Shown piece after piece: positions 7,593-24,724 of a stretch of DNA of 64,000 nucleotides. Each line of letters opens with the position of its first letter. Position 1 is the first letter of the stretch. A model generated the notes under the pieces. It searched no databases and was not told where the DNA came from. It was given only the letters and a program-made list of their open reading frames with translations. The position numbers were made by a program, and so were the translations under genes. Source of the DNA: Deltaproteobacteria bacterium (GTDB lineage Bacteria > Desulfobacterota > DSM-4660 > Desulfatiglandales > HGW-15); NCBI GenBank assembly GCA_020060215.1, contig JAGVAP010000120.1, positions 19,659 to 83,658 on the forward strand, read 5' to 3'.

Positions 7593-8408
7593 TCAATGGC
7601 GGTTGATGGGCACCCGGCCGGGGTCTCCTACGAAGGGCAGGATGAGAAGCCATGGCAGGGTCAGCCTCTTGGAGTTCCGGAGATGGGCAAGCCCGATGGT
7701 CATCCCGAGGTGCCCCTGTTCCGGCTGGGCCTTGTAGGTGCCGAACAGCCGGTCCCAGCAGGGCAGATTGAAGCCGTAGTTGCTGTTCGTCTCCCGGATG
7801 ATGACGGAGTGATGAACCCGGTGCATGTCGGGAGTCACGACGAGCATTCGGAGAATCCGATCCAGGCCTTCCGGCATGCGGAGGTTGCTGTGATTGAACA
7901 AAGTGGTGGAGTTGAGCGCAACCTCGAAGATGAGGACGGCCAGGGCGGAAGGCCCAAGTGCGGCCACGGCCGCGATCTTGATGGCTAGAGAAAAGAGGAT
8001 CTCGATGGGGTGGAAACGCATCCCGGTAGTCACATCGATGTCGAGGTCCGAGTGGTGCATCATGTGAAAACGCCACAGGAGCGGCACCGCATGATGGAGC
8101 ACGTGCTGAAGATAGATCACGAAGTCCAGAATGACGACCCCGACGACCACCTCAATCCAGTAGGGAAGTTCCAAGTTGTTGAGCAACCCCCATTGGCGCT
8201 CCTGAGCGATGAGGGCCATACCGACCGGAACGACCGGGAAGACCAGGCGGACCGAGAGGGGATTGAGGGCGATGATCACGAGATTGGCAAACCAGCGGCC
8301 CTTCCTGGATACGGTCAGGGTTCGTCTCGGGCTCAGGATCTCCATGACCGCTACGAGGGCAAAAGTGCCCAGGAAAAATGCAAGGCGTATCTTGGCTTCA
8401 CCGATCAC
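7593..8408 (-). CDS. Fatty acid hydroxylase/sterol desaturase superfamily membrane protein
   Basis: A 271-residue integral membrane protein with four or five helices and the three His boxes of the di-iron hydroxylase superfamily: HVLHH, HMMHH and HRVHH, plus the FHPIE motif between them. These enzymes use O2 to hydroxylate or desaturate lipids such as fatty acids, sterols or carotenoids. The start codon is probably GTG at 8408. It is 97 nt from the methyltransferase gene on the same strand. An O2-using lipid enzyme in an otherwise anaerobic gene set suggests at least microaerobic exposure; the substrate is unknown. Confidence 0.8.
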   Translation of the reverse strand: MIGEAKIRLAFFLGTFALVAVMEILSPRRTLTVSRKGRWFANLVIIALNPLSVRLVFPVVPVGMALIAQERQWGLLNNLELPYWIEVVVGVVILDFVIYLQHVLHHAVPLLWRFHMMHHSDLDIDVTTGMRFHPIEILFSLAIKIAAVAALGPSALAVLIFEVALNSTTLFNHSNLRMPEGLDRILRMLVVTPDMHRVHHSVIIRETNSNYGFNLPCWDRLFGTYKAQPEQGHLGMTIGLAHLRNSKRLTLPWLLILPFVGDPGRVPINRH

Positions 8409-8505: not shown

Positions 8506-9144
8506 TCAGGGTTTTCCTCCGCGAATAACTACAAATGAGCCCTCTCCATAGCCCGGCTTGGGTGGATCGGCCACCTTCATTTCCGCAGGGGCTTTGAAGA
8601 CCGTCTGTCGAATTGAGAAATCTTCAAAACCGGCTTGCTTCAATTGACGCAGGAGTTCATCCGCGGACAGGAATGTGGCGTTCCTGTAGAAGGGATTGTC
8701 CTTCTTATTTGCTTCGTAGATCTTGCCAAGTGGACTCTCGCGGTCTATGAAGCCGATCAGAATCTGTCCATCTTCTCTGAGGACCCGGCAGGCTTCCTTG
8801 AGTGCAGCGGGCACGTCATAGAGGAAACAGATCGTGGTAATCATGAGAAGAACATCCAGGCTCCCCTGCTTGAAAGGGATATCTTCGCCTACCCCCAGAA
8901 CTACCTCTATACCACGCTTGGATGCGGCCTTGCCCATATTGTAGGATGGGTCCACACCGAAACGCACGCCCAGGGAGGCGGCAAAGCGGCCCGTTCCCAC
9001 CCCGATCTCCACTCCTTTTTCGAATCTCGGAAGCAGCGCCCGAACCGCCTCGAGTTCCGATTGAAAGACAGGCAAATTCCTGTCGAACCAGGAGTCATAC
9101 CTGTCGACATGACGGGCAAAGGGATCAGTCCTGGACACTCTCAA
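8506..9144 (-). CDS. SAM-dependent methyltransferase (class I, type 11)
   Basis: A 212-residue Rossmann-fold methyltransferase. Motif I is VEIGVGTGRFA (about residues 45-55), an acidic motif II lies near VDPSYNMGK, and DVLLMITTICFL corresponds to motif IV. There is no cysteine triad of the ArsM arsenite methylase type. The substrate is unknown. It lies 105 nt downstream of the TVP38-like gene and may be the distal part of the selenoprotein operon or a separate unit. Confidence 0.75.
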   Translation of the reverse strand: MRVSRTDPFARHVDRYDSWFDRNLPVFQSELEAVRALLPRFEKGVEIGVGTGRFAASLGVRFGVDPSYNMGKAASKRGIEVVLGVGEDIPFKQGSLDVLLMITTICFLYDVPAALKEACRVLREDGQILIGFIDRESPLGKIYEANKKDNPFYRNATFLSADELLRQLKQAGFEDFSIRQTVFKAPAEMKVADPPKPGYGEGSFVVIRGGKP

Positions 9145-9249: not shown

Positions 9250-9951
9250 TCATCCATCCAGGGCTCCCCCTTTTGGCGTCTTCAACTTCCCGACAATCTT
9301 GGGAATGAAAAAAGAAAAGACAAAGAGCGCTATCGAGAAGAAGACCTGAGGGCTCAGTAACTCGCCCCACTCGCCCATTAGCCAGACCTGTTTCAGCGTA
9401 CCCACGAAAAAGGTGAAGATGAAGGTCCCAACGAGAATCCCCAGTCCTGTTCCGGCGAAGTAATCCCGGAACCGCACCTTGGTCAGCCCCATGCCGAAGT
9501 TTAACGGCGTGAAAGGAAAGTACAGGAGACGCAGGTAGAGGACCGTGGCAAAGCCGTTTCGTTCAATGGCATCATCGTATTTCCTCAGTTTGTCTCCGAT
9601 CAGAGAAGCGGCGAAGTCCCTGCCAAGAGTGCGTCCGATAAGAAATGCCGCACTCCCTCCGAGCATGGCGCCAAGCCAGACATAGACAAAGCCCCAATAG
9701 GCCCCGAAGAGGATCGCCCCAATGGCGCCCAAGACCGTGCCGGGAACGAACATGCAGACGCATGCCGCATAGATCAACACAAAGGCAAATGGAGCCCAAG
9801 AACCCGCGGATTCCAAAAAGCGTCCCAGTCGATCAGCGCTCAGGAATCCCATGACCGGAGTAAATCGAACCACCAGAAAGGCGGCGATGATGAACCCCAA
9901 TAAAAGGGCGGCTTTTATTGCCCCTCTTCGGGGGACGTTTCCTTCACGCAT
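9250..9951 (-). CDS. TVP38/TMEM64-family (DedA-like) membrane protein
   Basis: A 233-residue protein with five to six hydrophobic helices and the family core FVPGTVLGAIGAILFG, then GSAAFLIGRTLGRDF and RLLYFPFTPLNFGMG. Bacterial TVP38 proteins are inner-membrane proteins of uncertain transport function; homologues are often found beside mercuric-reductase or selenium/metalloid genes. It begins 37 nt after the end of the last small selenoprotein gene and is most likely in the same operon. Confidence 0.8.
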   Translation of the reverse strand: MREGNVPRRGAIKAALLLGFIIAAFLVVRFTPVMGFLSADRLGRFLESAGSWAPFAFVLIYAACVCMFVPGTVLGAIGAILFGAYWGFVYVWLGAMLGGSAAFLIGRTLGRDFAASLIGDKLRKYDDAIERNGFATVLYLRLLYFPFTPLNFGMGLTKVRFRDYFAGTGLGILVGTFIFTFFVGTLKQVWLMGEWGELLSPQVFFSIALFVFSFFIPKIVGKLKTPKGGALDG

Positions 9952-9988
9952 TGGGTTTTCTCAAATCCTGAATCCAGGGGCCGTCCTC

Positions 9989-10267
9989 TTACGGGCGTGC
10001 TGTTCTTCGGATCTTTGCCTGAATGGCCGATTCAAGCGCATCCAAGGAAATATCGGCCTTTTCCACCAGCACCTCTTCCCCCACCATGATAGCCGGCGCA
10101 ACAGGAAGGCCCAGCTTTGCATAGGCCTCCGATGCGTATTCTTCCCTCGGCTTGGAGACGACGTCTACATCGATCCCGTATTTCTCACCCAGACCGGGCA
10201 ACATCTCCTTGAAGTGCATTCAGGTTTTTCCGTTCGGTTCATTGAGAAAAAATTTGACCTTCAACAT
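9989..10267 (-). CDS. Thioredoxin-fold small selenoprotein A (UGA-encoded Sec16)
   Basis: The ATG at 10267 follows GGGAG, and the frame contains one in-frame UGA at 10222-10220 before an ordinary stop, giving 92 residues with selenocysteine at position 16. The N-terminus NEPNGKTUMHF forms the first strand and active-site turn of a thioredoxin-like fold. LGLPVAPAIMVGEEVLVE supplies the cis-Pro loop and following strands. Its neighbour at 10291-10614 has UGA at exactly the same codon in an otherwise conserved protein, so a chance stop is unlikely. Twenty-four bases after UGA a GGTCT loop closed by CCC/GGG occurs, as in bacterial SECIS elements. Role: a cytoplasmic selenol redox protein, inferred. 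Confidence 0.85.
10188..10198 (-). promoter_or_regulatory. bSECIS-like hairpin of selenoprotein A
   Basis: On the minus strand CCC-GGTCT-GGG, extendable by wobble pairs, with its loop beginning 24 nt after the UGA. The GGTCT loop is the same as the apical loop of the E. coli fdhF SECIS. In bacteria the SECIS lies in the coding sequence just after UGA and recruits SelB. Confidence 0.55.
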
Positions 10268-10290
10268 CTCTTCGCTCCCTTCTCTACTTT

Positions 10291-10614
10291 TTATGCGTTC
10301 TTTCTCAAGAGACGGCCCAGGAACCCGCGTTTCTGCTCCTCCACTGGGGGGAGCCCCAGGCCCTTTCGGATAGCGGCCTCGAGCTTTTCCTCGTTCACGT
10401 CGGAACCCTCGACCAGGATCTCTTCTCCCACCATCACCGCCGGGGCGACGGGCAGATCCAACTCGAAGTATTCATCCGTCTGATACTGGTCTTTCGGCTT
10501 CGAGATGGTCTCGATCTCTATCTCGTATTTTACGCCCAACCTGGGCATCATCACCTTGAAATGTTTTCAGGGTTTCCCGTTGGGTTCGTTGAGGAAGAAT
10601 CTTACCTTGAGCAT
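10291..10614 (-). CDS. Thioredoxin-fold small selenoprotein B (UGA-encoded Sec16)
   Basis: Starting at ATG 10614 behind AAGGAG, the frame passes one UGA (10569-10567) and ends after 107 residues. Selenocysteine 16 sits in NEPNGKPUKHF. About half of the residues match selenoprotein A over the whole length, including SKP, the LPVAPAVMVGEE cis-Pro loop and the LE-AI C-terminal helix; B has an additional basic tail ending RLLRKNA. The gene follows the rhodanese-DsbD fusion by 19 nt. Both paralogues keep a single Sec and no resolving Cys in the active-site turn, so they may form mixed selenenyl-sulfides with a partner such as the DsbD-like protein. Confidence 0.85.
10534..10546 (-). promoter_or_regulatory. 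bSECIS-like hairpin of selenoprotein B
   Basis: A perfect four-base-pair hairpin GCCC-AGGTT-GGGC on the minus strand. Its loop starts 24 nt after the UGA, the same distance as in selenoprotein A, and carries GG at the loop start as bacterial SECIS elements do. Confidence 0.6.
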
Positions 10615-10633
10615 AAGTTCGTTTTCTCCTTTT

Positions 10634-12385
10634 TCATCTTGAAGTTTTCTTGATCTCGGCCATGCGGCCGAGGAACTGATCGGGGGGAAGATAATCCACC
10701 AGCCGCAAATCCCGCCTCTCATTCCCGTTTCGGTCTATGAAGACAACCGTCGGAACCCCCTTGATTCCGTAATCCCGAAGCAATCGTTCGTGTACCGGGT
10801 CGCCTCCCCTGGTTACATCCACCTTGAGCATGATGAAGTCACCTCCCGCCTGGTTTACGATGGATGCGTCATGAAAGGTGACCTCTTCGAGCTCCCGGCA
10901 CGGCGTGCACCATGTGGCGTAGAAATCGATAATCACCGGCACCCCTTTTCTTTGGGCCTCCTGCAGCAGCCCTTCCGAGTAGGGCTTCCAGGCGACGCCG
11001 GGGCCTTTCACAGCCCAGGAGGCGACCAGGAAGGTGGCGAGAACCAGGCAGGCCACCCCGACTCCTGATTTGAGCCAGGGGAAGGCCCGGAAATTGGCCT
11101 GGTTCTTATCGATCCATCCAAGATGGAGCCCGGCAGCCAAGGCGACAGCGGCAAGGAGGATAGTCGCCAAGGACCCCGGGAGAATCGGTCTTGTGAAGTG
11201 CACCGCCATGCCGACCAATACCCATCCCATGAGCTTTCTCACCCAAATCATCCACCCGCCCGAGCGGGGGAGCTTCTCGATCTGACCTGAAAACATGGCA
11301 AGGAGAAAAAGCGGCACACCAAGGCCCAGGCTCAGGGTGAAGAATATGATAAATCCGAGCCACGGGCTTCCCATGCCGGCAACCCAGGTGAGGAGCCCCA
11401 GCACAAAGGGACCGATGCAGGGCGCCGCGACCACGCCGAGGGTCAGCCCCATGAAGAGGCTTCCGAAGTAGCCGGTGTAGGACTTTGAGGCGGCGCGGGT
11501 GAGCCCCATCGGGAGGCGCAGTTCCCAGAGTCCAAAGAGGCTCGATGCAAAGAGAATCAGAATCATCGCCACAACGATCAGGACGATCGGGTTCTGGAGC
11601 ATCGCACCCATCAGCCCGCCTGTGAGGGCGGCGAATACCCCCAGCACGGAATTGGTCACAGAAAGACCGAGCATATAGGACAAACCATGCGCTACCAGGT
11701 TGCCCCTGCCCTGGCCTCCCTTTGCGGCCTGTCCGCCGAAGTAGGAGACCGTAACGGGGATCAGGGGATAGACGCAGGGCGTGAGGTTCAGGGCCATGCC
11801 GCCTGCAAAAATGCCTAGAAGCGTCCAGATCATGGCCCAGCCATACAGGGGCCGTGCCGTTTCAGGCTCAGGCGCGGATGAGGCAAGTCCCGCCGGGGCG
11901 CTTTCGACAGGCATACCCTGCGCCTGCCATTCAGGGTATCCTTTGGGGTCGCGATAGACGTTCTTGTAACCGAGCTTTACGGCCACCCGGGCCGCCGAGT
12001 CGCTTCGGACTCATGTCAGGCCCGCTCAGTAGAATATGATCGTACGGTTTTTATCCGGTCCTAAGAGTGCTTCGAGCGCCGAACCCTTGCGCCACCTGGA
12101 CCACCAGGTGGGCTCCATGGGGAAATAGACAGCGCTCTTGATGTGGCCTGTGCGGTACTCCCATTCCTGTCGCGTATCCACCAGGAGGAGACCCGCAGGG
12201 TCCTTCCGATATAGATCACTTAGATCCTCCGTGCTCATGATCCGGTATCCTCCGGCTTTTGCTTCAGCCAGAACATCAGCCCATGTAGCGTCCTTGGGGG
12301 TGACCGCCCGGCTGGTAAGCCACAGGGCGCCTGCCGTTATGAGAACGGCCGCAGCTGCAAAGATAATGGATCTTTTTCCATCCAT
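10634..12385 (-). CDS. Rhodanese-DsbD-thioredoxin fusion selenoprotein with two Sec residues
   Basis: Read from ATG 12385, whose A is the last base of the upstream stop (TGATG overlap), one frame gives 583 residues if two UGA codons (12028-12026 and 12013-12011) are read as Sec120 and Sec125. Domain order: signal anchor (residues 5-25), rhodanese domain (about 45-155), DsbD-type eight-helix membrane domain (TPCVYPL and APCIGPF cysteine motifs), and a C-terminal thioredoxin domain with CTPC. The rhodanese active site is normally YC-x-G-x-x-C-x-x-S; here it reads FYUAGLTUVRS, so both UGAs replace the catalytic and second cysteine. Frame and homology continue undisturbed on both sides. Likely role: cytoplasmic electrons passed outward to a periplasmic sulfur or selenium transferase. 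Confidence 0.85.
11980..12012 (-). promoter_or_regulatory. Two bSECIS-like hairpins after the paired UGA codons
   Basis: On the minus strand GAGTC-CGAAGC-GACTC (12012-11997) has its loop 18 nt after the first UGA. CGGCC-CGGGT-GGCCG (11994-11980) has its loop 21 nt after the second. Both stems are perfect five-base-pair helices. The first stem uses the last two bases of the second UGA, so the two recoding sites may influence each other. Confidence 0.5.
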
Positions 12386-13083
12386 CACTTTTCCTTTCCT
12401 TGTCCGATTCCCGGCAATGGCCGCAGGGACTGTCGATGAAAGGTCAAGGCCTTCTTCGGACATGTCTCCACACAATAGGAACATTTGAGACAGTCACAGT
12501 GATTAACCACACCCGCCTCTCTATAGGAGCCGGGATAGATCTGCATACGGCACACCTTCTCGCAATTCCCGCAACTCGAGCAGGACTGGTCCACTCTCAG
12601 CAGGCTCTTGCCGCGACCAAGCCAGTTCGCCATTGTTCCCATGGGGCAGAACATGCACCAGATGCGTTGATTGTAGATCGTTCCCAGCGTCAGCCCCACA
12701 ATGGTAGTAACGGTCAGAATCATCACAAAGGGGGCCCCCATCCGATAGAAATCTCCCCACACGGGCTCCAGGTTCACGGCAAGCATAATCATCAAGACCG
12801 CCAACCAGAACAACCGAAACGAAACGCTTCGAAAGAAGCGGGGCACCTTTGCATTGCGGCTCAGGCGGCTGAGGTACTTGTCCCAAAAGCTGCCCCTCGG
12901 GCACATCCAGTCACACCAATTTCTTCCCTTGGCAAAACCGATCCCCATGGCCATCAGCATGCAGAAAAGGAGAAAGTAGCCCAATGGATGGTAGAACCAT
13001 CCCCCGATCAGCAGGGCTACGAAAAAAAGGCCGTTGATTATCTGTAAGGGACCGTTGCCGAGCGCTGCAGTTCGAGCACTCAT
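12385..13083 (-). CDS. NapH/MauN-type membrane ferredoxin (4Fe-4S)
   Basis: A 232-residue polytopic ferredoxin with at least four helices. Two membrane-boundary cysteine motifs (CDWMCPRGS and CMFCPMG) are followed by two C-terminal [4Fe-4S] clusters (CSSCGNCEKVC and CDCLKCSYCVETCP). NapH-like proteins pass quinol or cytoplasmic electrons to periplasmic partners. The start follows AAGGAGGTAAGC located in the end of the preceding gene, and the stop overlaps the start of the rhodanese-DsbD gene (TGATG), so the two are translationally coupled. It is the plausible electron source for the DsbD-like selenoprotein. Confidence 0.85.
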   Translation of the reverse strand: MSARTAALGNGPLQIINGLFFVALLIGGWFYHPLGYFLLFCMLMAMGIGFAKGRNWCDWMCPRGSFWDKYLSRLSRNAKVPRFFRSVSFRLFWLAVLMIMLAVNLEPVWGDFYRMGAPFVMILTVTTIVGLTLGTIYNQRIWCMFCPMGTMANWLGRGKSLLRVDQSCSSCGNCEKVCRMQIYPGSYREAGVVNHCDCLKCSYCVETCPKKALTFHRQSLRPLPGIGQGKEK

Positions 13084-13087
13084 AAGC

Positions 13088-13546
13088 TTACCTCCTTCCT
13101 AATCTCCCCTCTCTTCTGAGCTTCGAAAGGAGAAAGTTAGCACCCCTCATGGAGAGCCCCAATTTTCGGGCAAGCTCTCCAGGGTCAAGGGAGCCGTGGG
13201 TCTTGATGACGGAAGTGACCTCCTCTTCCAGTTCCTCCAGCCAGTCCTCAAAGAGCACGAGAATCTCCGGGTCCGTGATAGCCATCAGCTGTTTGGACTG
13301 GGCAACCTTGTCCACGAGGCTTTGGCACATCTCTGTCGGGTCGACACCTTCGCCCATGCACTCGGCCAGTCAGAGATGAACGAGGCTCGATACCTTGTCC
13401 CCTCGCGATTCCCCGGTGAGCTCCATGAGAAATCTGGTGCGGGCCTCTTCGTCCAGGAGCGGGAAGAGCGCTTTCAATCCTTTGGCCATCTCAGCCGAAG
13501 CCTGTTTCGGGTCCATCCGTGTAATCAATTTCAGTATCTCTTCCAT
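13088..13546 (-). CDS. Novel helical/winged-helix selenoprotein (UGA-encoded Sec59)
   Basis: From ATG 13546, behind AAGGAG, one frame gives 152 residues with a UGA at 13372-13370 as Sec59. Residues 1-57 are helical (ILKLITRMDPKQASAEM...). The centre reads HLULAECMGEGVDPTEMC, with Sec59, Cys63 and Cys74 in a U-x3-C-x10-C arrangement. The end (about residues 115-150) looks like a winged helix (SLDPGELARKLGLSMRG). I know no described selenoprotein of this build. It is 11 nt downstream of an ArsR gene and 4 nt upstream of the NapH-like gene. The Sec/Cys triad suggests binding or redox sensing of a soft metal or metalloid. Alternative: two separate short genes with a real stop, which the continuity argues against. 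Confidence 0.75.
13338..13355 (-). promoter_or_regulatory. bSECIS-like hairpin of the helical selenoprotein
   Basis: On the minus strand GGGCGA-AGGTG-TCG(A)CCC, six base pairs with one bulged A. The loop AGGTG starts 20 nt after the UGA, within the usual bacterial SECIS distance and with the expected G residues in the loop. Confidence 0.55.
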
Positions 13547-13557
13547 GGGGGGCTCCT

Positions 13558-14004
13558 TCAAAAGGTTTGCCGCGAGGACAAGAGATCGCTTGCCAAGGCG
13601 TTCAACATGCGAACCACATCCATGATTCTCGGTTCGGAGAGCTCGTAGTATATAAATGGCCCGATCCGCTCGATCTTGACCAGCAGAGACCGTTTTAACT
13701 CCTTAAGATGGTGAGAAACGAGAGGTTGAGAAAGCCCGAGTTCCTCAACAATGCTGGTAACCGACTTCTTCTCACGGCTGACGCATGCGAGGATCCGCAA
13801 CCGGTTTTCGTCGGAAAGGCTCTTGGAGAGAAAGGCCACGGAATGAAACTGGGGATCTTCAACCACTTGCGATGCTTTTTCCGGGGATACTTGTACGTTT
13901 CTCAATGATTTTTTCACGGCTGCCTTCCCCAAAGGGTTCTTTCCTGCCGTTGCCCGGCAAGCGGAGGAGCAGAAACGCGGGTTTGCCGAGCCGGACAAAC
14001 ACAT
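13558..14004 (-). CDS. ArsR-family metalloregulator heading the selenoprotein operon
   Basis: A 148-residue ArsR/SmtB winged-helix repressor. Residues about 50-145 form the wHTH: SLSDENRLRILACV, recognition helix GLSQPLVSHHLKELK, wing IERIGPFIYYEL. The canonical alpha-3 ELCVCDL motif is replaced by ACVSREKKSV, keeping one Cys. Uniquely, an N-terminal arm carries MCLSGSANPRFCSSACR, a possible three-cysteine metal site. Start: ATG 14004 is almost leaderless relative to the promoter; a GTG at 13917 behind GGGGAAGG would drop the cysteine arm. The stop lies 11 nt before the Sec59 gene, so it is the first gene of the operon. Confidence 0.8.
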   Translation of the reverse strand: MCLSGSANPRFCSSACRATAGKNPLGKAAVKKSLRNVQVSPEKASQVVEDPQFHSVAFLSKSLSDENRLRILACVSREKKSVTSIVEELGLSQPLVSHHLKELKRSLLVKIERIGPFIYYELSEPRIMDVVRMLNALASDLLSSRQTF

Positions 14005-15425: not shown

Positions 15426-16463
15426 TTATTCGGGATTTCGGAGCGCCCATGTGAAAAGGGATTTGAGAAATCCCAGGAAGGTCAGGCTCCAGGCCAGGAG
15501 GGCTGCGTAGATGAAGTATCGGGGAACCGCAAACAGGAAGTCCAACCCTGTTGCCTGGGCCAACCGGTAAGTGCAGGCGGTATACATGCCCAGGGGAAAA
15601 ACCATGCCCCAATACTGGGGGTCATAGGTAAACCTGACACGTCGGATGAGATAACGCCATGCGCCTAGGAGCAGGAGGAACGGAATCCACCAGGTACCGA
15701 ACGCCCAGAAAAGGAGGGAGAATCCCGTCGTCACCGGAACCAACCGCTCCAGGAATTCGACCCCGGGGCTGTGAAGGATGATGACGGCGCCGGCGAGCGA
15801 GGAAATCGCGACGGCGCCCATGTTGATCCAGTAGGGAGGGGTCAATACGTCGGGATTGAGTGGGAAGAACATGAACCTGTAGAAGAGCAGGGTGATGATC
15901 AGGATATACAGCACGCCGCCGGTCAGAAACATGCAGTAGGCGAAGAACAGGAACAGATCCCTGAGTGGAAGCTGAGGGGCCAACAAAGCGGCAAGAACGG
16001 CGACGGACTGCGTGGCCACCACTGCGACAAGCCATAGACCGCTGATCCCCTCCTGGATGGGAGGCTTCTCCGCCTTGACCGTCAGGATGGTGAAGATACC
16101 ATAGATCAGGATACCCCAGAGAATCCCTCCAGTGACCAGCAGGATCAGGGCGAGGCGCAATGCCTGTTCCATGAGAAACAACTGGGTCCCCAGGACGCAC
16201 GTGCCGGCAACCGTCGTGAAGAAGCCGACACCCTGAAGATGGTCGGACAGGTCACGGACGAACCTTCCGGGATACAAAATGATTCGGAAGATCGTGAGGC
16301 ACCACAACGCGATGTAAAAAAGCACATTCAACCAGAGGAGGGGCTTTGCAAAGATTCTCAGCTCCAGCAGATACGAGCCGATGGAAACGATCCCCGTGGC
16401 CATGACCATGGAGAAATAGGAGGGCGGGAGGTTTTTTATGGCGTTTGTCAACCGCGTCGGCAT
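15426..16463 (-). CDS. TDT-family transporter (TehA/SLAC1 type)
   Basis: A 345-residue protein with about ten hydrophobic helices. Family signatures include the start [17 protein letters not shown] and the central helix pairs [17 protein letters not shown] and [20 protein letters not shown] members include tellurite-resistance TehA, malate carriers and plant SLAC1 anion channels; the substrate here could be an anion such as nitrate, sulfite or a dicarboxylate. Chosen start ATG 16463; an ATG 36 nt upstream is in frame. It lies downstream of narI on the same strand, separated by a repeat cluster, which makes an anion-export role linked to nitrate or nitrite worth considering. Confidence 0.75.
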
Positions 16464-16504
16464 GTAGTGCCACCTGCCTTCTGAGTTTCGGATCGTCACA
16501 AGTC

Positions 16505-17018: not shown

Positions 17019-17684
17019 TCAGCAGTAACTCCTGAATACGATGAACCTGCGGATCAGGTAGGTCAGCGGAACGCTCCAGATATGGACCAGCCTCGTAAAA
17101 GGGGAAAACCCCAGGATGGCAAGACCGCTGATCACATGCAGCTTGTAGCTGAAAGGAACCGGAACCATGAGCGCAGGTTCGGGCCTGAGAATCACGACGC
17201 TTCGGATCCAGGGGGCGATGCTGTCAAGCACGTTGTAATGGCCGAGTATTACATTGTAGAGACCGGTGCCGATGGCGATGAAGAGCAGAATGAGCGTCAC
17301 GAACTGGTTCACGGTCGTGGCCGCCCGGACCCGATGGTGGGTGAACCGCCTCTTCAAGAGAAGAAATATCCCTGCGAATGCAGCGAGACCGATCAGCAAT
17401 CCTCCGCCCAGGGCTATTCGGATGTGGAGCTCGCTGCCTACCCTTGCGAGATCGTAGAGGCTCTGAGGGATGAGCATTCCCCCTGCGTGTCCGACAAGGG
17501 TCAGGAGGATCCCCCAATGGAAAAGGGTGATCCCCACCTTGAGACCCTTCCTGTCCAGGATTTCGCTCGAGCGCGCGGCCCAGCCGTAGCGGTCCGTGGC
17601 GTAGCGGTATGAATGGCCCAGGACAAAGACGGTGATCACGATATAGGGATAGACGGCGAAGGCCAGGGTATGGATTGCGTCCAT
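17019..17684 (-). CDS. narI: Respiratory nitrate reductase gamma subunit (cytochrome b)
   Basis: A 221-residue membrane cytochrome b. The ATG at 17684 follows GAGGGGA. Five helices and the heme-ligating histidines are visible (FHWGILLTLVGHAGGM, YKLHVISGLAILGFSPFTRLVHIWS). NarI takes electrons from quinol at the periplasmic side and passes them through two b hemes to NarH. It follows narJ by 123 nt. Its 3' end is directly against a repeat cluster. Confidence 0.9.
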   Translation of the reverse strand: MDAIHTLAFAVYPYIVITVFVLGHSYRYATDRYGWAARSSEILDRKGLKVGITLFHWGILLTLVGHAGGMLIPQSLYDLARVGSELHIRIALGGGLLIGLAAFAGIFLLLKRRFTHHRVRAATTVNQFVTLILLFIAIGTGLYNVILGHYNVLDSIAPWIRSVVILRPEPALMVPVPFSYKLHVISGLAILGFSPFTRLVHIWSVPLTYLIRRFIVFRSYC

Positions 17685-17807
17685 GTCATTCCCCTCAACT
17701 CGGGAATCGTTCGTGAGACGTGTACATATTAAGGTAATTGGAACCCTTGATCCGCGATCGTTTTCAGTGAAACACGGGCCGATTGAATGCAACGTGAGGG
17801 CCAACCC

Positions 17808-18311
17808 TCATTTCGGGCAAAAGAATTCCGCGACCAGGCCGAGCAACCCGGCGTAGCTGCTCCCCTGCTTCTTTAATCTGCCCGCCAGTCCATGGATCTC
17901 TTCACGGTAGTCGTTCATGATCGCTCCAGCCGCCCCGTCGGGGCAGACCGCCAGGAATTCGAGGACAAGGGGCAGGTAGTCAGGCAGCTCCCCGGTGCTC
18001 ATCTCAAAGCCGGCAGCCTGGTACAGGCCGGAAAGAGCCGCCAGCGCCTTGCCCCGCTCGCGATCATCCCCCTGCTTGTGATGGCTCAGGTTGAGACACA
18101 TGGAGGGGTCCAGATCAAGAATTCGGGTGTACTCCTCCTGCACATCCAGAAGCGGTGTCCGCCTGAGGTAATCCAGGAACCCCGAGCACACCTTCCTTGC
18201 GCCCTCCTGCTCCAGCTCGGAGACCGCCGCTTCCACCTCGCTCAAACCCTCAATGAGGTCCTCGTCGGGATACTGGAGAAGAAGCGAAATCATTTTTGGA
18301 AATGGATCCAT
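17808..18311 (-). CDS. narJ: Nitrate reductase molybdenum-cofactor assembly chaperone
   Basis: A 167-residue all-helical TorD/NarJ-family chaperone. From ATG 18311 it starts MDPFPKMISLLLQYPDEDL, a typical NarJ N-terminus, and includes LDVQEEYTRILDLD and the conserved GELPDYLPLVLEFL. NarJ holds apo-NarG while the Mo-bisMGD cofactor and Fe-S cluster are inserted. The open frame continues upstream into repeat DNA, which is not part of the protein. The Shine-Dalgarno (AGAGAAG) is weak, possibly because the repeat/GIY-YIG block replaced the original upstream context. Confidence 0.85.
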   Translation of the reverse strand: MDPFPKMISLLLQYPDEDLIEGLSEVEAAVSELEQEGARKVCSGFLDYLRRTPLLDVQEEYTRILDLDPSMCLNLSHHKQGDDRERGKALAALSGLYQAAGFEMSTGELPDYLPLVLEFLAVCPDGAAGAIMNDYREEIHGLAGRLKKQGSSYAGLLGLVAEFFCPK

Positions 18312-18339
18312 TTTGGCCGGGGAGACTTCTCTGAAAGTA

Positions 18340-18555
18340 AAAGATTGGATTCCCGCCAAGAAACTGCGGGAATGACACGAAAAACACTTCGTCGTTCCCG
18401 CAGTCTTTAGGCGGGAACCCAGTCCTGGACGTGTCGCGTGGATTCCCGCCCAAGGAATTGCGGGAATGACGCACCAGACAACCAAATGCAACGTCGTTTC
18501 CGCGAAGCCTGTCCCCGCAGGATGTAGGCGGGGAGCGGGAACCCGGAACATGGGC
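18340..18555. repeat. ATTCCCGC-type inverted repeats (copy cluster 2)
   Basis: The same modules as cluster 1: GGATTCCCGCC hairpins near 18349 and 18440, a GTTCCCGCAGTCTTTAGGCG module near 18392, and a CCCCGC/GCGGGG unit near 18512-18538. They lie between the narJ start and the end of the GIY-YIG gene. Confidence 0.8.
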
Positions 18556-18562
18556 GACGTAA

Positions 18563-18856
18563 TCAAGCCACGATTCTCTCATACAGGTCATCCCAATGTG
18601 GGTTATCTCTTTCGATAAGCCGGATTTTCCACGCTCGCTCCCATTTCTTTATCTGCTTCTCTCTGGTGATAGCCGCCTCCGCACTATCGTGTACTTCATA
18701 GTAGACGAGGATCTTTACCCCATATTTCCTTGTGAAGCCCTCGACAAGATCTTGTTTGTGCTCCCATGTGCGCTTGATGAGATCCGAAGTGACTCCGACA
18801 TAAAGGGTGCCGTTGCGTTTGCTGGCAAGGATGTACACGTAGAACTGCCTGCTCAT
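18563..18856 (-). CDS. GIY-YIG nuclease-superfamily small protein (YhbQ/UPF0213-like)
   Basis: A 97-residue single-domain GIY-YIG protein. The first motif is FYVYILASKRNGTLYVGVTS (the two motif halves are YVY and YVG), the catalytic Arg lies in DLIKRTWEHK, and the metal-binding Glu is in REKQIKKWERAWK. Free-standing proteins of this type are common and mostly uncharacterised; some bind or nick DNA. It is flanked on both sides by the ATTCCCGC repeat clusters and interrupts the narGHJI operon, which suggests it travels with or acts on those repeats. Its Shine-Dalgarno is weak. Confidence 0.85.
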   Translation of the reverse strand: MSRQFYVYILASKRNGTLYVGVTSDLIKRTWEHKQDLVEGFTRKYGVKILVYYEVHDSAEAAITREKQIKKWERAWKIRLIERDNPHWDDLYERIVA

Positions 18857-18919
18857 TAGACTTCACCAACGGAATGATCAAGGATCATCCCTCCGAGGGG
18901 CTCATGGCGCCCCCTTTGA

Positions 18920-19260
18920 AATTCTGGATTCCCGCCCCCCGCCTACTGCCTGCGGGGACAGGCTGCGCGCGAATGACACGAAAAACACTCCTTCGTTCCC
19001 GCAATTTTCAGGCGGGAACGCAGTCCAAGCCGTGTCGCATGGATTCCCGCCAAGGGACTGCGGGAATGACGGACTCATAAAGTTCTGGATCCCTGCTCCC
19101 CGCCCCATGCCTCCGCGGGGGCATGCACTGGGCGGGAATGACACGAAAAACACTCCGTCGTTCCCGCACGAAACCGCCCCCTCGTTTCCCAAAACAACAC
19201 TCCTGTCGTTCCCGCAATCTTCAGGCGGGAACCCAGGTTTCTTGAGCCAGGCCATTGAAG
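18920..19260. repeat. ATTCCCGC-type inverted repeats (copy cluster 3)
   Basis: Modules near 18926, 18993, 19040, 19130 and 19207 with the same hairpin words as clusters 1 and 2, including the CTCATAAAGTTCTGGATCC unit shared with cluster 1 at 19075. The long stretch 19030-19235 is close to 16535-16735 in cluster 1 almost base for base, so these are recent copies of a composite roughly 200-nt unit. Confidence 0.85.
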
Positions 19261-19313
19261 CTCCCCGGCAGCAAACTGCGGGGTTAGCGCTCACTGTTTC
19301 GGTTCATCCAGCC

Positions 19314-20726
19314 TCAACCTTCATACCCCCTCGTCCCTTTCGTGACATGGGCGTCTTCCGTGTATTCTCTCCTGACGGCGGGGATCACATACCGGTCTCC
19401 GTGTTTGGCTATGGCCAGGAGCCGGTACATCTCTTCAGCCGTTCGCAAGTCCAGGCCGGCCTTCTCCAGCCCGGCCGTGTCCGGTTTTCCCTCCACGCGG
19501 ACCGACCGCATGTGGGCGCGCAAGGCCGTAAGCCGTTCCAGGGCCAGCCGCACCGGCGCCTCATCGCCGGCGGTCAGGAGGTTTGCAAGGTACCTGAGCG
19601 GTATCCTCATTTTCCCCGGGTCGGCCGCTCCGCTCGACTCAGCGTCGCGGAGCATGGGGCTGAGGGGGGGCACATACCAGACCATGGGGAGCGTGCGAAA
19701 TTCGGGATGGGGAGGAAAGGCCAGCCGCCATGTCTTGATGAGCTTGTAGACGGGCGATCTTTTCGCAGCATCGAGATAAGAAGCCGCCACCCCGCCGGCA
19801 AGGGCATGCGCAGAGACCTCCGGGTCATGTGGATCCAGGATCGTCTCCAGGTGACCCGTGTACACGTCCTTTTGGTCCCTGGAGGCCGCCTCCCTGATCC
19901 GGTCCGCGTCGTAGAGGACGATGCCGATGTACCGGATGCGTCCCACACAGGTCTCCGCACAGAGGGTGGGGAGTCCCGCCTCGACCCTCGGGTAGCAGAA
20001 GATGCACTTCTCGCTCCTCCCGCTCTTCCAGTTGTAATAAACCTTCTTGTAAGGGCATCCCGACACGCAGAAGCGCCACCCCCGGCACCTTTCCTGGTCC
20101 ACCAGAACGATCCCGTCCTCCTCCCGTTTGTAAAGTGCCCCCGAGGGGCACGACGCCACGCATGCCGGGTTCAGGCAGTGCTCGCAGATGCGGGGGAGAT
20201 AGAACATGAAAACATCCCGGAATCGGAGGTACCTCTGGTAATCCAGGTCACGGAAGTTGACATCCCCCTTTCCGGTCGCGTTGACACCGCCCAGGTCGTC
20301 TTCCCAATTCGGTCCCCATTGGATCCGCATGTTTTCATCCGTGATCAGGGACTTGGGCCGGATGGAGGGCTGGTGTTTCCTCGTCGGACTGGAGGTGAGC
20401 TTCTGATAGTCGTAGGTCCATGGCTCGTAGTAGTCGTCCAGGCGGGGCATGTCGGGATTGTGGAAAATGGTGAGGAGCTTCCTGGTCCTGCCGCCGGCCT
20501 TAAGGGAGATTCTCCCGTCCCCGGATTCCCAGCCGCCGCGATACCCGTCCTGATCCTCCCACCCCTTCGGATAGCCGATGCCGGGCTTTGTCTCGACGTT
20601 GTTGTACCAGATGTACTCAGACCCTGCTTTGCCGGTCCAGACGTTCTTGCAGGGGATGCTGCAGGTGTGGCACCCGATGCATTTGTCCAGGTTCATGACC
20701 ATGGCCATTTGGGCCTTAATCCTCAT
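19314..20726 (-). CDS. narH: Respiratory nitrate reductase beta subunit (Fe-S)
   Basis: A 470-residue soluble iron-sulfur subunit. Four cysteine groups typical of NarH are present: CIGCHTCSIPCKNVW, CEHCLNPACVASCPSG, CRGWRFCVSGCP (the Trp in place of a Cys gives the [3Fe-4S] cluster) and CIFCYPRVEAGLPTLCAETC. NarH wires NarI hemes to the NarG active site at the cytoplasmic face. Its start overlaps the narG stop by 11 nt. Downstream, where narJ normally follows at once, there are 1,002 nt of repeats and a GIY-YIG gene. Confidence 0.95.
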   Translation of the reverse strand: MRIKAQMAMVMNLDKCIGCHTCSIPCKNVWTGKAGSEYIWYNNVETKPGIGYPKGWEDQDGYRGGWESGDGRISLKAGGRTRKLLTIFHNPDMPRLDDYYEPWTYDYQKLTSSPTRKHQPSIRPKSLITDENMRIQWGPNWEDDLGGVNATGKGDVNFRDLDYQRYLRFRDVFMFYLPRICEHCLNPACVASCPSGALYKREEDGIVLVDQERCRGWRFCVSGCPYKKVYYNWKSGRSEKCIFCYPRVEAGLPTLCAETCVGRIRYIGIVLYDADRIREAASRDQKDVYTGHLETILDPHDPEVSAHALAGGVAASYLDAAKRSPVYKLIKTWRLAFPPHPEFRTLPMVWYVPPLSPMLRDAESSGAADPGKMRIPLRYLANLLTAGDEAPVRLALERLTALRAHMRSVRVEGKPDTAGLEKAGLDLRTAEEMYRLLAIAKHGDRYVIPAVRREYTEDAHVTKGTRGYEG

Positions 20727-23700
20727 ACCAGTTCACCTCTCCCGCCTTTCTTACGATGACGACCTCATCGCGCTGCGCTCCGGTCGGCCCGTAATAATTG
20801 AACCCATAGCTGAGTTGCGCATAGCCGCCGATCATCTGGGTGGGCTTCACCAGGATACGGGTAAGGCTGTTGTGGGTCCCTCCGCGCTTGCCGGAGACCT
20901 CGGATCCCGGGGTATTGATCAGCCTCTCCTGCGCATGATACATGAACGCCTTTCCCCGCGGGATGCGGTGACTGACGACCGATTTCGCTACGACCGCGCC
21001 GTTGACGTTGAAACACTCCAGCCAATCGTTGTCCCTGATCCCGATGGAGGCTGCGTCCTCGTCGTTGATCCAGATGGCCTCGCCTCCCCGGAACAGGGTC
21101 AGCATGATCAGGGTGTCGGAATAGGTGCTGTGGATGGACCACTTGGAATGGGGGGTCAGGTAATTCAAAACCAGCTCGGGTGCCTCCGGTCTCTCAAGGC
21201 GTGTGGATCCGAGCAGCACCATGTCCAGCGGGGGTCGGAAGATGGGGAGCCCCTCCCCGAAGTCGCGCACCCATTCGTGGTCGAGGTAAAGCTGCGCCCG
21301 TCCCGTCAGGGTCCGGAAGGGGACCCTCTCTTCGATATTCACGGTGAACGGGGAATACGAACGGCCCTCCTCCTCAACTCCGCTCCAGATGGGGGAGGTA
21401 ATGACCCGTCGGGGCTGCGCATCCAGATCGGCAAACGTGAAGCGCTCCGCTGCGCGGTCCCTTGCCAGGTGAGTCAGGTCCAGACCGGTCTTTCCGGAGA
21501 GTGCGGCCCACGCCTTCACCGCCGATCGGCCGTTGGTCTCCGGCGAGAGGGCGAGGATCGCCTCGGCCACCTGCCTTCCGGTAGTCAAGTCGGGCATGGA
21601 CCGGCCGATTCCATCGGATGCGGTCCCAAGTCTTCCCTTCAGCCACTCGTATTCCTCGGCCGCCTCCCAGGTGATCCCCTTTGCGCCGACACCGAAGCGC
21701 TCCACCAGTGGGCCGAGGGCGGTCATCATCCTGTAGGTTTCAGGGTAGTCCCGGTCCAGCACCTTCAGCGCCGGCATCGTCTTGCCGGGGATCGGCTCCG
21801 CGTCTCCCCTCTTCCAGTCCTTCACGGAGGACTGGGCGATCTCCGAGGGCGTGTCATGCATGAGCGGCGTGGAGACCAGGTCTTTCCGGCCGCCGAGATG
21901 GGTCTCCGCCATCTCCGAGAATTTTCGGGCGATCGTCTTGAACTGATCCCAGTTGGTCCTGCTCTCCCAGACAGGGTCAATTGCCGGGTTGAACGGGTGG
22001 ATGAAGGTGTGGAGGTCGGTAGTGCTCAGATCATGCATCTCGTACCATCCGGCCGCAGGCAGGACCACGTCCGAATATAGAGCGCTCGTGGACATCCGGA
22101 GCTCCATGGTGACAAGGAGGTCGAGCTTTCCTTCTGGAGATTTCTCTCTCCACAAGATCTCTTCGGGCCTCGCTGCGCTCTCTTCGGCGAATACGGCGTG
22201 TTCGGCGCCCAGGAGGTGCTTGAGAAAATACTCATGCCCTTTGCCGCTCGCACCGAGGAGATTGGCACGCCAGAGCAGAAGCACACGCGGAAAATTGTCC
22301 GGGTGATCCGGGTCCTCCACGGCAAATCGGACTTCCCCGTCCTTGATCTTTCCGACCACGCGCTTGATGATCTCTTCTTCGGAACGTGCGCCTTCATCAA
22401 CGGCTTCTCGGCAGAGGTCAAGCGGGTTCCGGTTGAATTGCGGGTAGAAGGGGAGCCATCCGAGCCTGGCGGCGACCGCGTTATAGTCGGCGAGGTGGCT
22501 CTTGGGCCGGCCGTTTGCCAGTGGTGACGCGATCATTTTGGCATCCAGGTTTTCGTACCGCCATTGGTTCGTCGCGAAATAGTAAAAGGAGGTGCCGTTC
22601 TGAAACCTGGGGGGCCTGAGCCAATCCAGCGCGAAGGCAACCGTGGACCATCCGGTAAGGGGCCTTACCTTCTCCTGCCCGACATAGTGGGCCCAGCCGC
22701 CTCCACTCACCCCCTGGCACCCGCAGAGGGTGGTGAGATTGAGGATGGTCCGGTAGATCATATCGCAGTGGTACCAGTGGTTGGTCCCCGCGCCCAGGAA
22801 GATCATGGATTTCCCACGGGTCTTCTCGGCATTTTGAGCAAACTCCCGTGCCACGCGGACGGCGTCTTCCCGGGGGACGGATGTGATCTTCTCCTGCCAC
22901 GCGGGCGTATAGGGAACAGGGTCATCATAACCTCCGGCAGTATCTCCACCGCGGCCCCTGTCGATGCCGAGGTTGGCGGCCATGAGATCGAAGACCGTGG
23001 CCACAATGATCTCGCTTCCATTCGTTCTGATTCGCTTCACCGGCACCGACCCGGTCTTCGTCCTCGAACCGCCCTCCTCAAAAATTGGGAAGAGGACCGA
23101 GACCCACGGCTCGTTTTCCCCCTCGAAGCTCAATAAAGGGTTCACCGCCTCCTGATTTTCGGAATTCTTCCGATGGAGATTCCAGCACCCTTCCTCCCCC
23201 CATCGAAATCCGATGCTGCCGTTCGGGACCACGAAACCCCCGCCTGCAGCGTCGAAATAGACAGTCTTCCACTCGTCCCCTTCTCCTTTGGCGCCCAAGT
23301 CGGATGCGCGGAGAAATCGGCCCGCAACATAGGCTTCGCCCTTTTTCTCAAGAACCACGGCAAAGGGAAGATCTGTGTAGCTCTTTGCGTACTCGGCAAA
23401 ATACTCGGACCGGCGGTCCAGGTAGAACTGCTTCAGGATGACGAAGGTCATGGCCATGGCCAAGGCCGAATCGGTCCCGGCCTTTGCCGGGAGCCAGGTG
23501 TCCGCGAACTTCACGTACTCCGCATAGTCGGGCGCCACCGCCGCGACCTTCGCGCCGCGGTAGCGGGCCTCCGTGTAGAAGTGGGCGTCGGGGCTCCTGG
23601 TCATGGGGAGATTGGTCCCCCAGACGATCATGTAGGAGGCATTGTACCAGTCCGCGCTCTCGGGAACGTCCGTCTGCTCTCCCCAGACCTGTGGCGATGC

Positions 23701-24381
23701 CGGGGGAAGATCGCAGTACCAGTCGTAAAAGCTGATCATGGAGGCCCCGATCAGGGAAAGGAATCTGGCGCCCGAGGCGTAGCAGACCATGGACATGGCG
23801 GGGATGGGGGTGAAACCGAAGATCCTGTCCGGACCGTATCGCTTGATGGAGTAAATCAGGGAGGCGGCGATCAGGGTCGAGGACTCTTCCCAGGACACCC
23901 GGACCAGCCCTCCTTTTCCCCGCGACCGCTGATAGGCCCCCCTTCTTTCAGGGTCGGAGACGATGCTCTCCCAGGCGGCCACCGGATCGGGCCGGGCTGC
24001 AATCGCATCCCTCCACATCTCCAGGAGCGAGGATCTCACGTAGGGGTACTTCACGCGGACAGGGCTGTAGGTGTACCATGTGTAGGAAGCCCCGCGGGGG
24101 CAGCCGCGCGGCTCGTGATCCGGCAGATCAGGGCCGTTGCCCGGGTAATCCCCCCTCTGGGCGTCCCAGACGATGATCCCGTCCTTGACATAGACGTTCC
24201 AGGAGCAGGAGCCGGTGCAGTTGACCCCATGGGTGGAGCGCACCCGCTTGTCGTACTGCCACCTCCTCCGGTAGTAATCCTCCCAAGTCCTGCCTCCGCA
24301 ACGGACCTCCGCCGCCGGTCCCACCGCCTTTCTCCGGAAGAAACGAAGAGAGGATAGGAGATCATTGTGACGTGCTCGCAT
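20716..24381 (-). CDS. narG: Respiratory nitrate reductase alpha subunit (Mo-bisMGD)
   Basis: A 1,221-residue catalytic subunit, the normal NarG length. ATG 24381 behind GAGGCGGG gives the expected N-terminus; an in-frame ATG 78 nt upstream is less likely. RSTHGVNCTGSCSW carries the His51/Cys55/Cys59 ligands of the FS0 [4Fe-4S] cluster. Bis-MGD contacts are seen in YMIVWGTNLPMTRSPDAHF and GGWAHYVGQEKVRP. There is no Tat signal, consistent with a cytoplasm-facing enzyme. It reduces nitrate to nitrite for anaerobic respiration. A molybdate-type binding protein gene lies divergently upstream. No narK or response-regulator gene is adjacent. Confidence 0.95.
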   Translation of the reverse strand: MRARHNDLLSSLRFFRRKAVGPAAEVRCGGRTWEDYYRRRWQYDKRVRSTHGVNCTGSCSWNVYVKDGIIVWDAQRGDYPGNGPDLPDHEPRGCPRGASYTWYTYSPVRVKYPYVRSSLLEMWRDAIAARPDPVAAWESIVSDPERRGAYQRSRGKGGLVRVSWEESSTLIAASLIYSIKRYGPDRIFGFTPIPAMSMVCYASGARFLSLIGASMISFYDWYCDLPPASPQVWGEQTDVPESADWYNASYMIVWGTNLPMTRSPDAHFYTEARYRGAKVAAVAPDYAEYVKFADTWLPAKAGTDSALAMAMTFVILKQFYLDRRSEYFAEYAKSYTDLPFAVVLEKKGEAYVAGRFLRASDLGAKGEGDEWKTVYFDAAGGGFVVPNGSIGFRWGEEGCWNLHRKNSENQEAVNPLLSFEGENEPWVSVLFPIFEEGGSRTKTGSVPVKRIRTNGSEIIVATVFDLMAANLGIDRGRGGDTAGGYDDPVPYTPAWQEKITSVPREDAVRVAREFAQNAEKTRGKSMIFLGAGTNHWYHCDMIYRTILNLTTLCGCQGVSGGGWAHYVGQEKVRPLTGWSTVAFALDWLRPPRFQNGTSFYYFATNQWRYENLDAKMIASPLANGRPKSHLADYNAVAARLGWLPFYPQFNRNPLDLCREAVDEGARSEEEIIKRVVGKIKDGEVRFAVEDPDHPDNFPRVLLLWRANLLGASGKGHEYFLKHLLGAEHAVFAEESAARPEEILWREKSPEGKLDLLVTMELRMSTSALYSDVVLPAAGWYEMHDLSTTDLHTFIHPFNPAIDPVWESRTNWDQFKTIARKFSEMAETHLGGRKDLVSTPLMHDTPSEIAQSSVKDWKRGDAEPIPGKTMPALKVLDRDYPETYRMMTALGPLVERFGVGAKGITWEAAEEYEWLKGRLGTASDGIGRSMPDLTTGRQVAEAILALSPETNGRSAVKAWAALSGKTGLDLTHLARDRAAERFTFADLDAQPRRVITSPIWSGVEEEGRSYSPFTVNIEERVPFRTLTGRAQLYLDHEWVRDFGEGLPIFRPPLDMVLLGSTRLERPEAPELVLNYLTPHSKWSIHSTYSDTLIMLTLFRGGEAIWINDEDAASIGIRDNDWLECFNVNGAVVAKSVVSHRIPRGKAFMYHAQERLINTPGSEVSGKRGGTHNSLTRILVKPTQMIGGYAQLSYGFNYYGPTGAQRDEVVIVRKAGEVNWYED

Positions 24382-24724
24382 GGACAACCCGCCTCTGTAG
24401 TAAATTCGTCGTAAGACGCTAATGGACAGGAAGAAAAGGATACTACATTGCCTTTCCATTGCGCAAGGTTCTGCAAACTGCCGCTGAGACCTCCCCCCAT
24501 TTCCACGGTTCTCGGATCGATTTACGAAGGATCGCCTGGGGACATGGAGGAGATGGCTTCAACGCATAGCGTTCCTGTTCCAATCCCGATTTGCAGGCCG
24601 GCCGCACCCTATAATTTCTTTGACGAAACTCATGTCCTTTTGCCTTTCAAATTCGAAGAAGAACCCATTCGAAAGCGGGCGTAGAGTGAGCATCTTCTTT
24701 TTATTTCTTTGGAGGAGGCTCGTG
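24382..24724. promoter_or_regulatory. Divergent narG / molybdate-binding-protein control region
   Basis: A 343-nt region between two divergent genes. It must hold the promoters of the nar operon and of the binding-protein gene. I could not find a convincing FNR/DNR box (TTGAT-N4-ATCAA), NarL heptamer pair or sigma-54 promoter. GGAGGAGG at 24711-24718 is the ribosome binding site of the downstream gene. Confidence 0.35.

Follow-up and report, generated by a model that had tools for sequence, protein, structure and literature searches.

Tso, the "three selenoprotein operon", is the closest described system to the gene cluster considered here. A 2026 review (PMC13188914) names TsoA, TsoB, TsoC, TsoX and TsoY and attributes the operon to Haft and Tolstoy 2025. 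In the literature that we searched, the system is named and has no assigned reaction. We analyzed a 64,000-nucleotide stretch from a Deltaproteobacteria bacterium (GCA_020060215.1, contig JAGVAP010000120.1, positions 19,659 to 83,658), hereafter the window, in which positions 9250-14004 of the minus strand form a tight operon of tsoR, tsoA, a NapH-like gene, tsoB, tsoC1, tsoC2 and a TVP38-type gene. Matches to the NCBIfam families TsoR, TsoA, TsoB and TsoC (the last twice) all exceed the curated cut-offs of release 20.0, on which the family identities rest. An earlier reading of the letters alone, the original prediction, had proposed an undescribed selenoprotein system. That proposal fails because NCBIfam names its parts and the review describes Tso; the tight, arsR-headed gene order, in which four genes contain five in-frame UGA codons, was borne out by frame reading and spacing. 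We predict that the encoded proteins, with the five UGA codons likely read as selenocysteine (Sec), work together as a relay that carries sulfane sulfur and electrons across the inner membrane, a reading to which we assign a probability of about 0.5.

Operon layout and selenocysteine codons

When TGA is read as Sec, the operon has four open frames with five internal UGA codons. The first gene, tsoR (13558-14004; NF045707, 156.3 bits, cut-off 115), encodes an ArsR/SmtB-type regulator. The match covers residues 52-148 of the open reading frame; with the family profile starting only at residue 52, the true start is probably downstream of 14004. Next is tsoA (13088-13546; NF045695, 231.5 bits, cut-off 170), which encodes a LULAXC selenoprotein with its UGA at 13370-13372. 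The NapH-like gene (12385-13083) begins 4 nt beyond tsoA and overlaps tsoB by 1 nt. The tsoB gene (10634-12385; NF045694, 1017.4 bits, cut-off 805) has UGA codons at 12026-12028 and 12011-12013, and the next three gaps are of 19, 23 and 37 nt. They precede tsoC1 (10291-10614; NF045708, 151.1 bits, cut-off 45), for a NEPxGxxU monoselenol thioredoxin-fold protein with UGA at 10567-10569, its paralogue tsoC2 (9989-10267; NF045708, 133.1 bits, same cut-off), with UGA at 10220-10222, and the gene for a TVP38/DedA-type membrane protein (9250-9951; PF09335, 81.7 bits). As originally noticed, the two TsoC paralogues carry UGA at the same codon.

These UGA columns are almost invariant among relatives. 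Of 548 loci matched by TsoB, the scan covered the best 80, whose titles are mostly of Desulfobacterota; the culturable carriers Desulfoprunum benzoelyticum and Desulfacinum infernum are among them. In this set, which was picked by similarity to a Sec-bearing query, both UGA columns are kept in 77/77 proper rows that cover both sites, the window included. The remaining rows of the 92 comprise 11 fragments or paralogues that do not cover the sites and four low-scoring rhodanese paralogues that read CU or CC. With the window again included, TsoA has UGA in 50/51 rows covering the site (52 rows in all; one has Arg) and TsoC in 86/87 (one has Cys). The original prediction had asked whether homologues carry Cys or UGA at the same columns, and Cys forms were found for TsoC: among 70 homologues with the motif, from the 120 listed of 4159, the Sec column holds Cys in 25, Trp in 42 and Arg or Leu in three. 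We read the Trp as a table 4 translation of UGA. The shared operon layout and the conservation of UGA are far beyond chance.

SECIS-like (selenocysteine insertion sequence) hairpins lie after the UGA codons: at 13338-13355 in tsoA (loop AGGUG), 11980-11994 after the second UGA of tsoB, 10534-10546 in tsoC1 (loop AGGUU) and 10187-10199 in tsoC2 (loop GGUCU; row 2 of the TsoC hairpin alignment). For hairpins picked after inspecting the same alignments, and against shuffles that related sequences may exceed even without structure, alignment cells changed on both sides of the helix numbered 11 in TsoC (shuffled mean 1.5, standard deviation 1.1), 10 in TsoA (2.5, 1.2) and 20 in the TsoB second-UGA hairpin (3.3, 1.6), and in each case 0/500 shuffles reached the observed count. 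The TsoA pair at columns 20-33 is GC in 32 rows, AU in 10 and GU in one, and slid helices gave at most one both-side cell for TsoA and three for TsoB. Loops are mostly of the AGGU type in TsoA and TsoC and of the CGGGU type in TsoB; AGGU is also the loop of the E. coli fdhF SECIS.

The gene for the Sec-specific factor SelB scores above its cut-off in 16/16 tested genomes of relatives that carry Tso; within the window, tblastn gave no match to selA, selB or selD. Rfam at gathering thresholds and ARAGORN gave no match of any kind in the window. Taken together, UGA conservation, the hairpins and selB in relatives make it likely that the five UGA codons are read as Sec in four proteins of one regulated operon, as first proposed.

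One metagenome-assembled genome carries, besides a UGA-bearing TsoA, a second TsoA (L021:2446-2898) whose Sec column holds Arg and which is perhaps a decayed or repurposed duplicate. Loci L013 and L021 carry the same isolate title.

Architecture of the Tso proteins

TsoB begins with a hydrophobic segment (a signal anchor), followed by a rhodanese domain, a DsbD membrane domain and a thioredoxin domain (Pfam Rhodanese, DsbD_TM and Thioredoxin_7). U120, U125, C204 and C323 are invariant in 76/76 sequences, and positions 493 and 496 are Cys in 73/73 filled rows. TsoB therefore has, as read from its alignment, three conserved redox pairs in series: Sec120/Sec125, Cys204/Cys323 and Cys493/Cys496. 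The Pfam domains and this invariance support the original placement of a Sec pair (UxxxxU) within the rhodanese loop of a DsbD/thioredoxin fusion.

The structural model of TsoC1 has a thioredoxin fold (pLDDT, the predicted local distance difference test, 89.8; pTM, the predicted template modelling score, 0.77). Foldseek against the PDB placed thioredoxins on top (probability 1.00, best E 1.0e-3, TM score about 0.5), and a profile search against PDB sequences returned no thioredoxin as a significant hit. By motif reading (GxxU), the Sec of TsoC occupies the second rather than the first position of a thioredoxin-type CxxC.

In TsoA, U64, C68 and C79 are invariant (43 sequences). Its model is helical with a helix-turn-helix (HTH)-like C-terminus, at low confidence (pLDDT 77, pTM 0.40), and its structural matches, none with E < 0.001, are to HTH proteins and lie in the C-terminal part.

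The regulator TsoR is without a conserved cysteine. Several contigs were present in both the TsoB and the TsoA sets; with duplicates removed, the best Cys column of 98 distinct TsoR sequences holds Cys in 44, and in the uncleaned set, with duplicates and some other ArsR proteins, it does so in 46/113. For want of a conserved Cys, metalloid sensing by TsoR thiols, one reading of the metalloid control in the original prediction, is unsupported and was set aside.

The NapH-like gene

The protein encoded between tsoA and tsoB is a NapH-like membrane ferredoxin but not NapH itself, because it scores 58.8 bits against TIGR02163, under the cut-off of 213.05. A search found 539 relatives. Its membership in the system, as first proposed, does not extend to the usual operon: a NapH match was found in the tso operon of 0/80 other TsoB loci, 51 of which have tsoA beside tsoB. 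Weak matches (25%) lie near but outside the tso operon in L040 and L050.

Close kin occur in a different setting. Among 257 genomes of the Desulfoprunum class 27 have a match at E 1e-40, of which only five are close (64-70%), and in 5/5 of these genomes (L111, L113-L115, L146; L112 was excluded as the same stretch as L146) the order is tsoR-A-(C)-SQR-napH, with napH as the gene after a flavoprotein similar to SQR (sulfide:quinone oxidoreductase). TsoC was recognized in 4/5 of these operons; in the fifth, L114, TsoA has an extra in-frame stop. A piece of the TsoX cluster lies beyond napH in 4/5, and TsoB is in the operon in 0/5. Searches at E 1e-70 gave 0/389 genomes of the L028 class and 0/55 of the L011 class, empty results that are uninformative without a known matching genome.

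In the TsoA tree the window falls in a 12-row clade (support 99). All typed members of this clade have TsoB, and the window accordingly resembles an operon of the TsoB type that either gained or kept a napH of the SQR-linked kind.

Other genes occupy the gap between tsoA and tsoB elsewhere: TauE in L028 (L028:9157-9945), a DnaJ-like gene in L047 and L070, and a DnaJ-like gene with a methyltransferase in L040. It seems that this gap tolerates insertions.

Genomic neighborhood

TsoA matches were found in 75/257 genomes of the Desulfoprunum class (64 over the cut-off). Of the 61 TsoA-anchored loci that we examined, 50 extend 4 kb or more downstream; the downstream and upstream sets, of 50 loci each, were picked by flank length and are not wholly identical. 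Within 4 kb downstream on the same strand, the genes encountered were TsoC (36 loci), SQR-like (16), TsoB (14), TsoX (12), three DsrE-type subgroups (9, 7 and 6), TsoY (6), TauE (5) and NapH (5). TsoY matches the SLAC1 anion-channel family. TsoB, SQR, DsrE or TauE is present in 37/50 loci downstream (same strand, 4 kb) versus 5/50 upstream (either strand), and loci without TsoB have SQR, DsrE or TauE in 23/36. Six TsoA places (L006, L012, L015, L016, L021 and L078) were omitted as already in the TsoB set; all have TsoB and none has an SQR or NapH match, and with them TsoB would stand at about 20/56 and the sulfur-gene count would be higher. An SQR is expected to have three conserved redox cysteines; in the SQR-like protein Cys126, Cys160 and Cys342 are each present in 21/23 sequences. 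The sulfur-redox theme of the original prediction is supported by this neighborhood.

Three further gene types recur around Tso. Among 42 TsoB loci with enough flank, TVP38 lies within 3.5 kb in 22 (21 of the 22 downstream), a methyltransferase is nearby in 8 (on the same strand in 6) and an FA_hydroxylase gene in 10, all on the same strand and downstream. The last two are present in the window on the minus strand: a class I methyltransferase (8506-9144; PF08241) and an FA_hydroxylase-family membrane protein (7593-8408; PF04116), OlsE-like at 107 bits, below the cut-off of 475. The latter is a sterol-desaturase-type enzyme, an unexplained presence in likely anaerobes.

Upstream of tsoR the window has a gene for a SLAC1/TDT-family anion channel (15426-16499; TIGR00816, 83.8 bits, cut-off 237), SLAC1 being the Pfam family also matched by TsoY. 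Respiratory nitrate reductase genes lie farther upstream (17019-24459), with narI at 17019-17804 and narG at 20716-24459. Viral contigs gave two pattern matches and no relative.

Two groups of other selenoprotein candidates came to light in the surveyed loci. DsrE-like candidates in Tso loci (L164:6221-6541 and 15 similar) end at TGA in 16/16; the frame continues past the TGA in the six inspected, with UGxC in five. Divergent TsoA-like paralogues (L166:7569-7991, L198:5712-6134, L205-L219) reach 76-95 bits, short of the TsoA cut-off (170), and each has a single in-frame UGA, located within a UxxxC motif. At 17 loci anchored on this divergent group, a TsoR-like gene is present in 14 and a DUF5714/MbdU-like gene in 15 (one scanned). 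The group is possibly an unnamed selenoprotein family.

Predicted function and alternatives

A route can be outlined for the predicted relay. Cytoplasmic electrons would reduce the DsbD-type Cys204/Cys323 pair of TsoB and would then pass through the thioredoxin pair to Sec120/Sec125 in the rhodanese loop. There the Sec pair would take sulfane sulfur, from polysulfide, thiosulfate or a persulfide, and release the reduced form. TsoC would be a cytoplasmic monoselenol that carries or reduces persulfide inside the cell. In the window, the NapH-like Fe-S protein may deliver quinone-pool electrons to TsoB on its cytoplasmic face, and in the related operons its counterpart presumably exchanges electrons with the SQR-like flavoprotein. 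TsoR would act as repressor of the operon, and a component other than a TsoR thiol would detect the signal. The direction of electron and sulfur flow and the substrate are putative.

Several observations weigh against this scheme or against the hairpins that accompany it. None of the sulfur genes above is found at 13/50 TsoA loci, and in the window there is no SQR match and no DsrE gene was seen near the operon. SQR-like activity is a guess, because two of the proteins score 85 and 101 bits, where the type III SQR selenoprotein subtype (NF049943) requires 525. The recurrent methyltransferase, FA_hydroxylase and TVP38 neighbors are unexplained by a sulfur relay. In a first count of TsoA loci, SQR is present in 0/14 with TsoB versus 15/37 without it (p 0.0045), and SQR lies within 4 kb downstream in 1/54 TsoB-anchored loci, window included; this apparent exclusion is weak, and is ruled out as independent evidence by the TsoA tree, because the pattern amounts to about four changes, with one independent pair on well-supported branches. 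As for the hairpins, covariation comes from one pair only in TsoC and in TsoA and from two pairs in TsoB, and the number of covarying pairs is not above shuffles (411, 484 and 196 of 500 for TsoC, TsoA and TsoB, respectively). A TsoC helix slid by +1 has 10 both-side cells versus 11, though with much less pairing (57.8 versus 97.3%) and a much smaller covariation score (0.019 versus 0.155). For the first TsoB UGA, the 12 best pairs listed include no separate helix, and simple folding z-scores are weak (mean z -0.3 to -0.6).

Handling of a metal or metalloid such as arsenic or mercury is an unlikely alternative, in which an ArsR-type sensor would act with TsoA as a three-ligand binder (U64/C68/C79) and with an arsenite-methyltransferase-like partner. 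It would make sense of the ArsR/SmtB membership of TsoR and of the three chalcogen residues that are invariant across 43 TsoA sequences, and a few neighbors fit: L003 has Acr3 directly upstream of tsoB, L023 has a convergent Acr3 gene downstream, L064 has an ArsM-like methyltransferase domain in the Tso neighborhood, and the methyltransferase of the window weakly matches the ArsM selenoprotein profile (29 bits). The absence of a conserved Cys in TsoR speaks against it, however, and Acr3 near Tso is rare (1/42), in contrast to the sulfur-transfer genes that are frequent in the surveyed class. The ArsM-like domain of L064 (L064:13847-14455) scores 334 bits (cut-off 575) over the first 202 of 459 positions of the selenoprotein profile, and a C_GCAxxG_C_C protein adjoins the Tso operon there (13242-13862).

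We consider it quite unlikely that Tso serves general DsbD-type periplasmic thiol-disulfide or oxidative-stress repair, with the rhodanese and TsoC as plain selenol reductases. The DsbD_TM and thioredoxin domains of TsoB are what this would require, and a thioredoxin reductase lies within 3.5 kb of Tso in 6/42 loci, but the rhodanese loop and the recurrent SQR, DsrE and TauE partners are left unexplained.

A role in selenium supply, in which Tso would take up or deliver selenide or selenite for Sec synthesis and the SQR-like and DsrE proteins would carry perselenide, appears very unlikely. The SQR-like protein does match TIGR03169, a domain found N-terminal to SelD, at 47-54 bits (below the cut-off of 310), and among the TsoA loci selD is downstream in 3/50 and selA upstream in 5/50. 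Yet the six selA loci (L113, L115, L146, L154, L155 and L158) cluster in a single group of eight rows on the TsoA tree, most loci have neither gene nearby, and a selenium supply that needs five Sec would depend on itself. Broken genes or a genome-wide reassignment of UGA are hardly credible in place of Sec, given that up to 77 sequences share the UGA columns, with covarying hairpins after the UGA, and napH, tsoB and TVP38 genes in the same operon that use UGA as stop.

In our judgement metalloid handling, thiol repair and selenium supply fit the neighborhood less well than a sulfur relay. The relay may be carried further into a modular scheme that we offer as speculation, rather unlikely as a whole: a Sec-based sulfane-sulfur relay with a TsoA/TsoC core and exchangeable membrane modules (TsoB; SQR; SQR with NapH), of which the window would be an unreported hybrid whose NapH-type polyferredoxin feeds TsoB directly. 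In that scheme TsoR would have no thiol sensor, and the invariant U64/C68/C79 center of TsoA, its constant neighbor with an HTH-like end, would read the sulfur signal, the two forming a split selenol-based regulator.

The SQR-like, DsrE, rhodanese, TauE and NapH-like partners turn a named operon into a testable sulfane-sulfur hypothesis. If it is true, mostly anaerobic Desulfobacterota would run a sulfur relay with Sec in place of Cys at several steps and with membrane electron modules that can be swapped. For experiments, a ready handle is offered by the Cys homologues and the covarying SECIS-like hairpins.

Comparison with known systems

The Tso core is already known. What seems to be new is the NapH-like insertion, the sulfur-gene neighborhood of TsoA operons and a TsoR without conserved Cys; neither these nor the SQR-NapH alternative was found in the literature searched, although Haft and Tolstoy 2025 may hold some of them.

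Several described proteins and operons share parts of the locus. DsbD thiol:disulfide interchange proteins have an N-terminal alpha domain. TsoB resembles them in its DsbD_TM Cys pair and C-terminal thioredoxin CxxC, and differs in that a rhodanese domain with two Sec replaces the alpha domain. The NapH/MauN ferredoxins share with the window protein the Fer4_5 motifs, hydrophobic helices and two 4Fe-4S motifs, but its TIGR02163 score is below the NapH cut-off and no nap gene was seen in the operon. Many selenoproteins in one operon are also a feature of the selenocysteine-assisted organometallic (SAO) operon, as covered in the review (PMC13188914); none of the NCBIfam families matched by the window operon's proteins carries the name of an SAO component. 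The tsoR-A-C-SQR-napH operons have in common with the window TsoR, TsoA and a 64-69% identical NapH-like protein, as well as TsoC in 4/5, but they combine an SQR-like flavoprotein with the lack of TsoB, whereas the window has TsoB and no SQR.

Tso itself is the nearest relative: the window has all four families above cut-off, and the R-A-B-C order is that of its relatives. It departs from Tso in having two tsoC genes (as do some relatives) without TsoX or TsoY in the operon, and in the NapH-like gene inserted between tsoA and tsoB.

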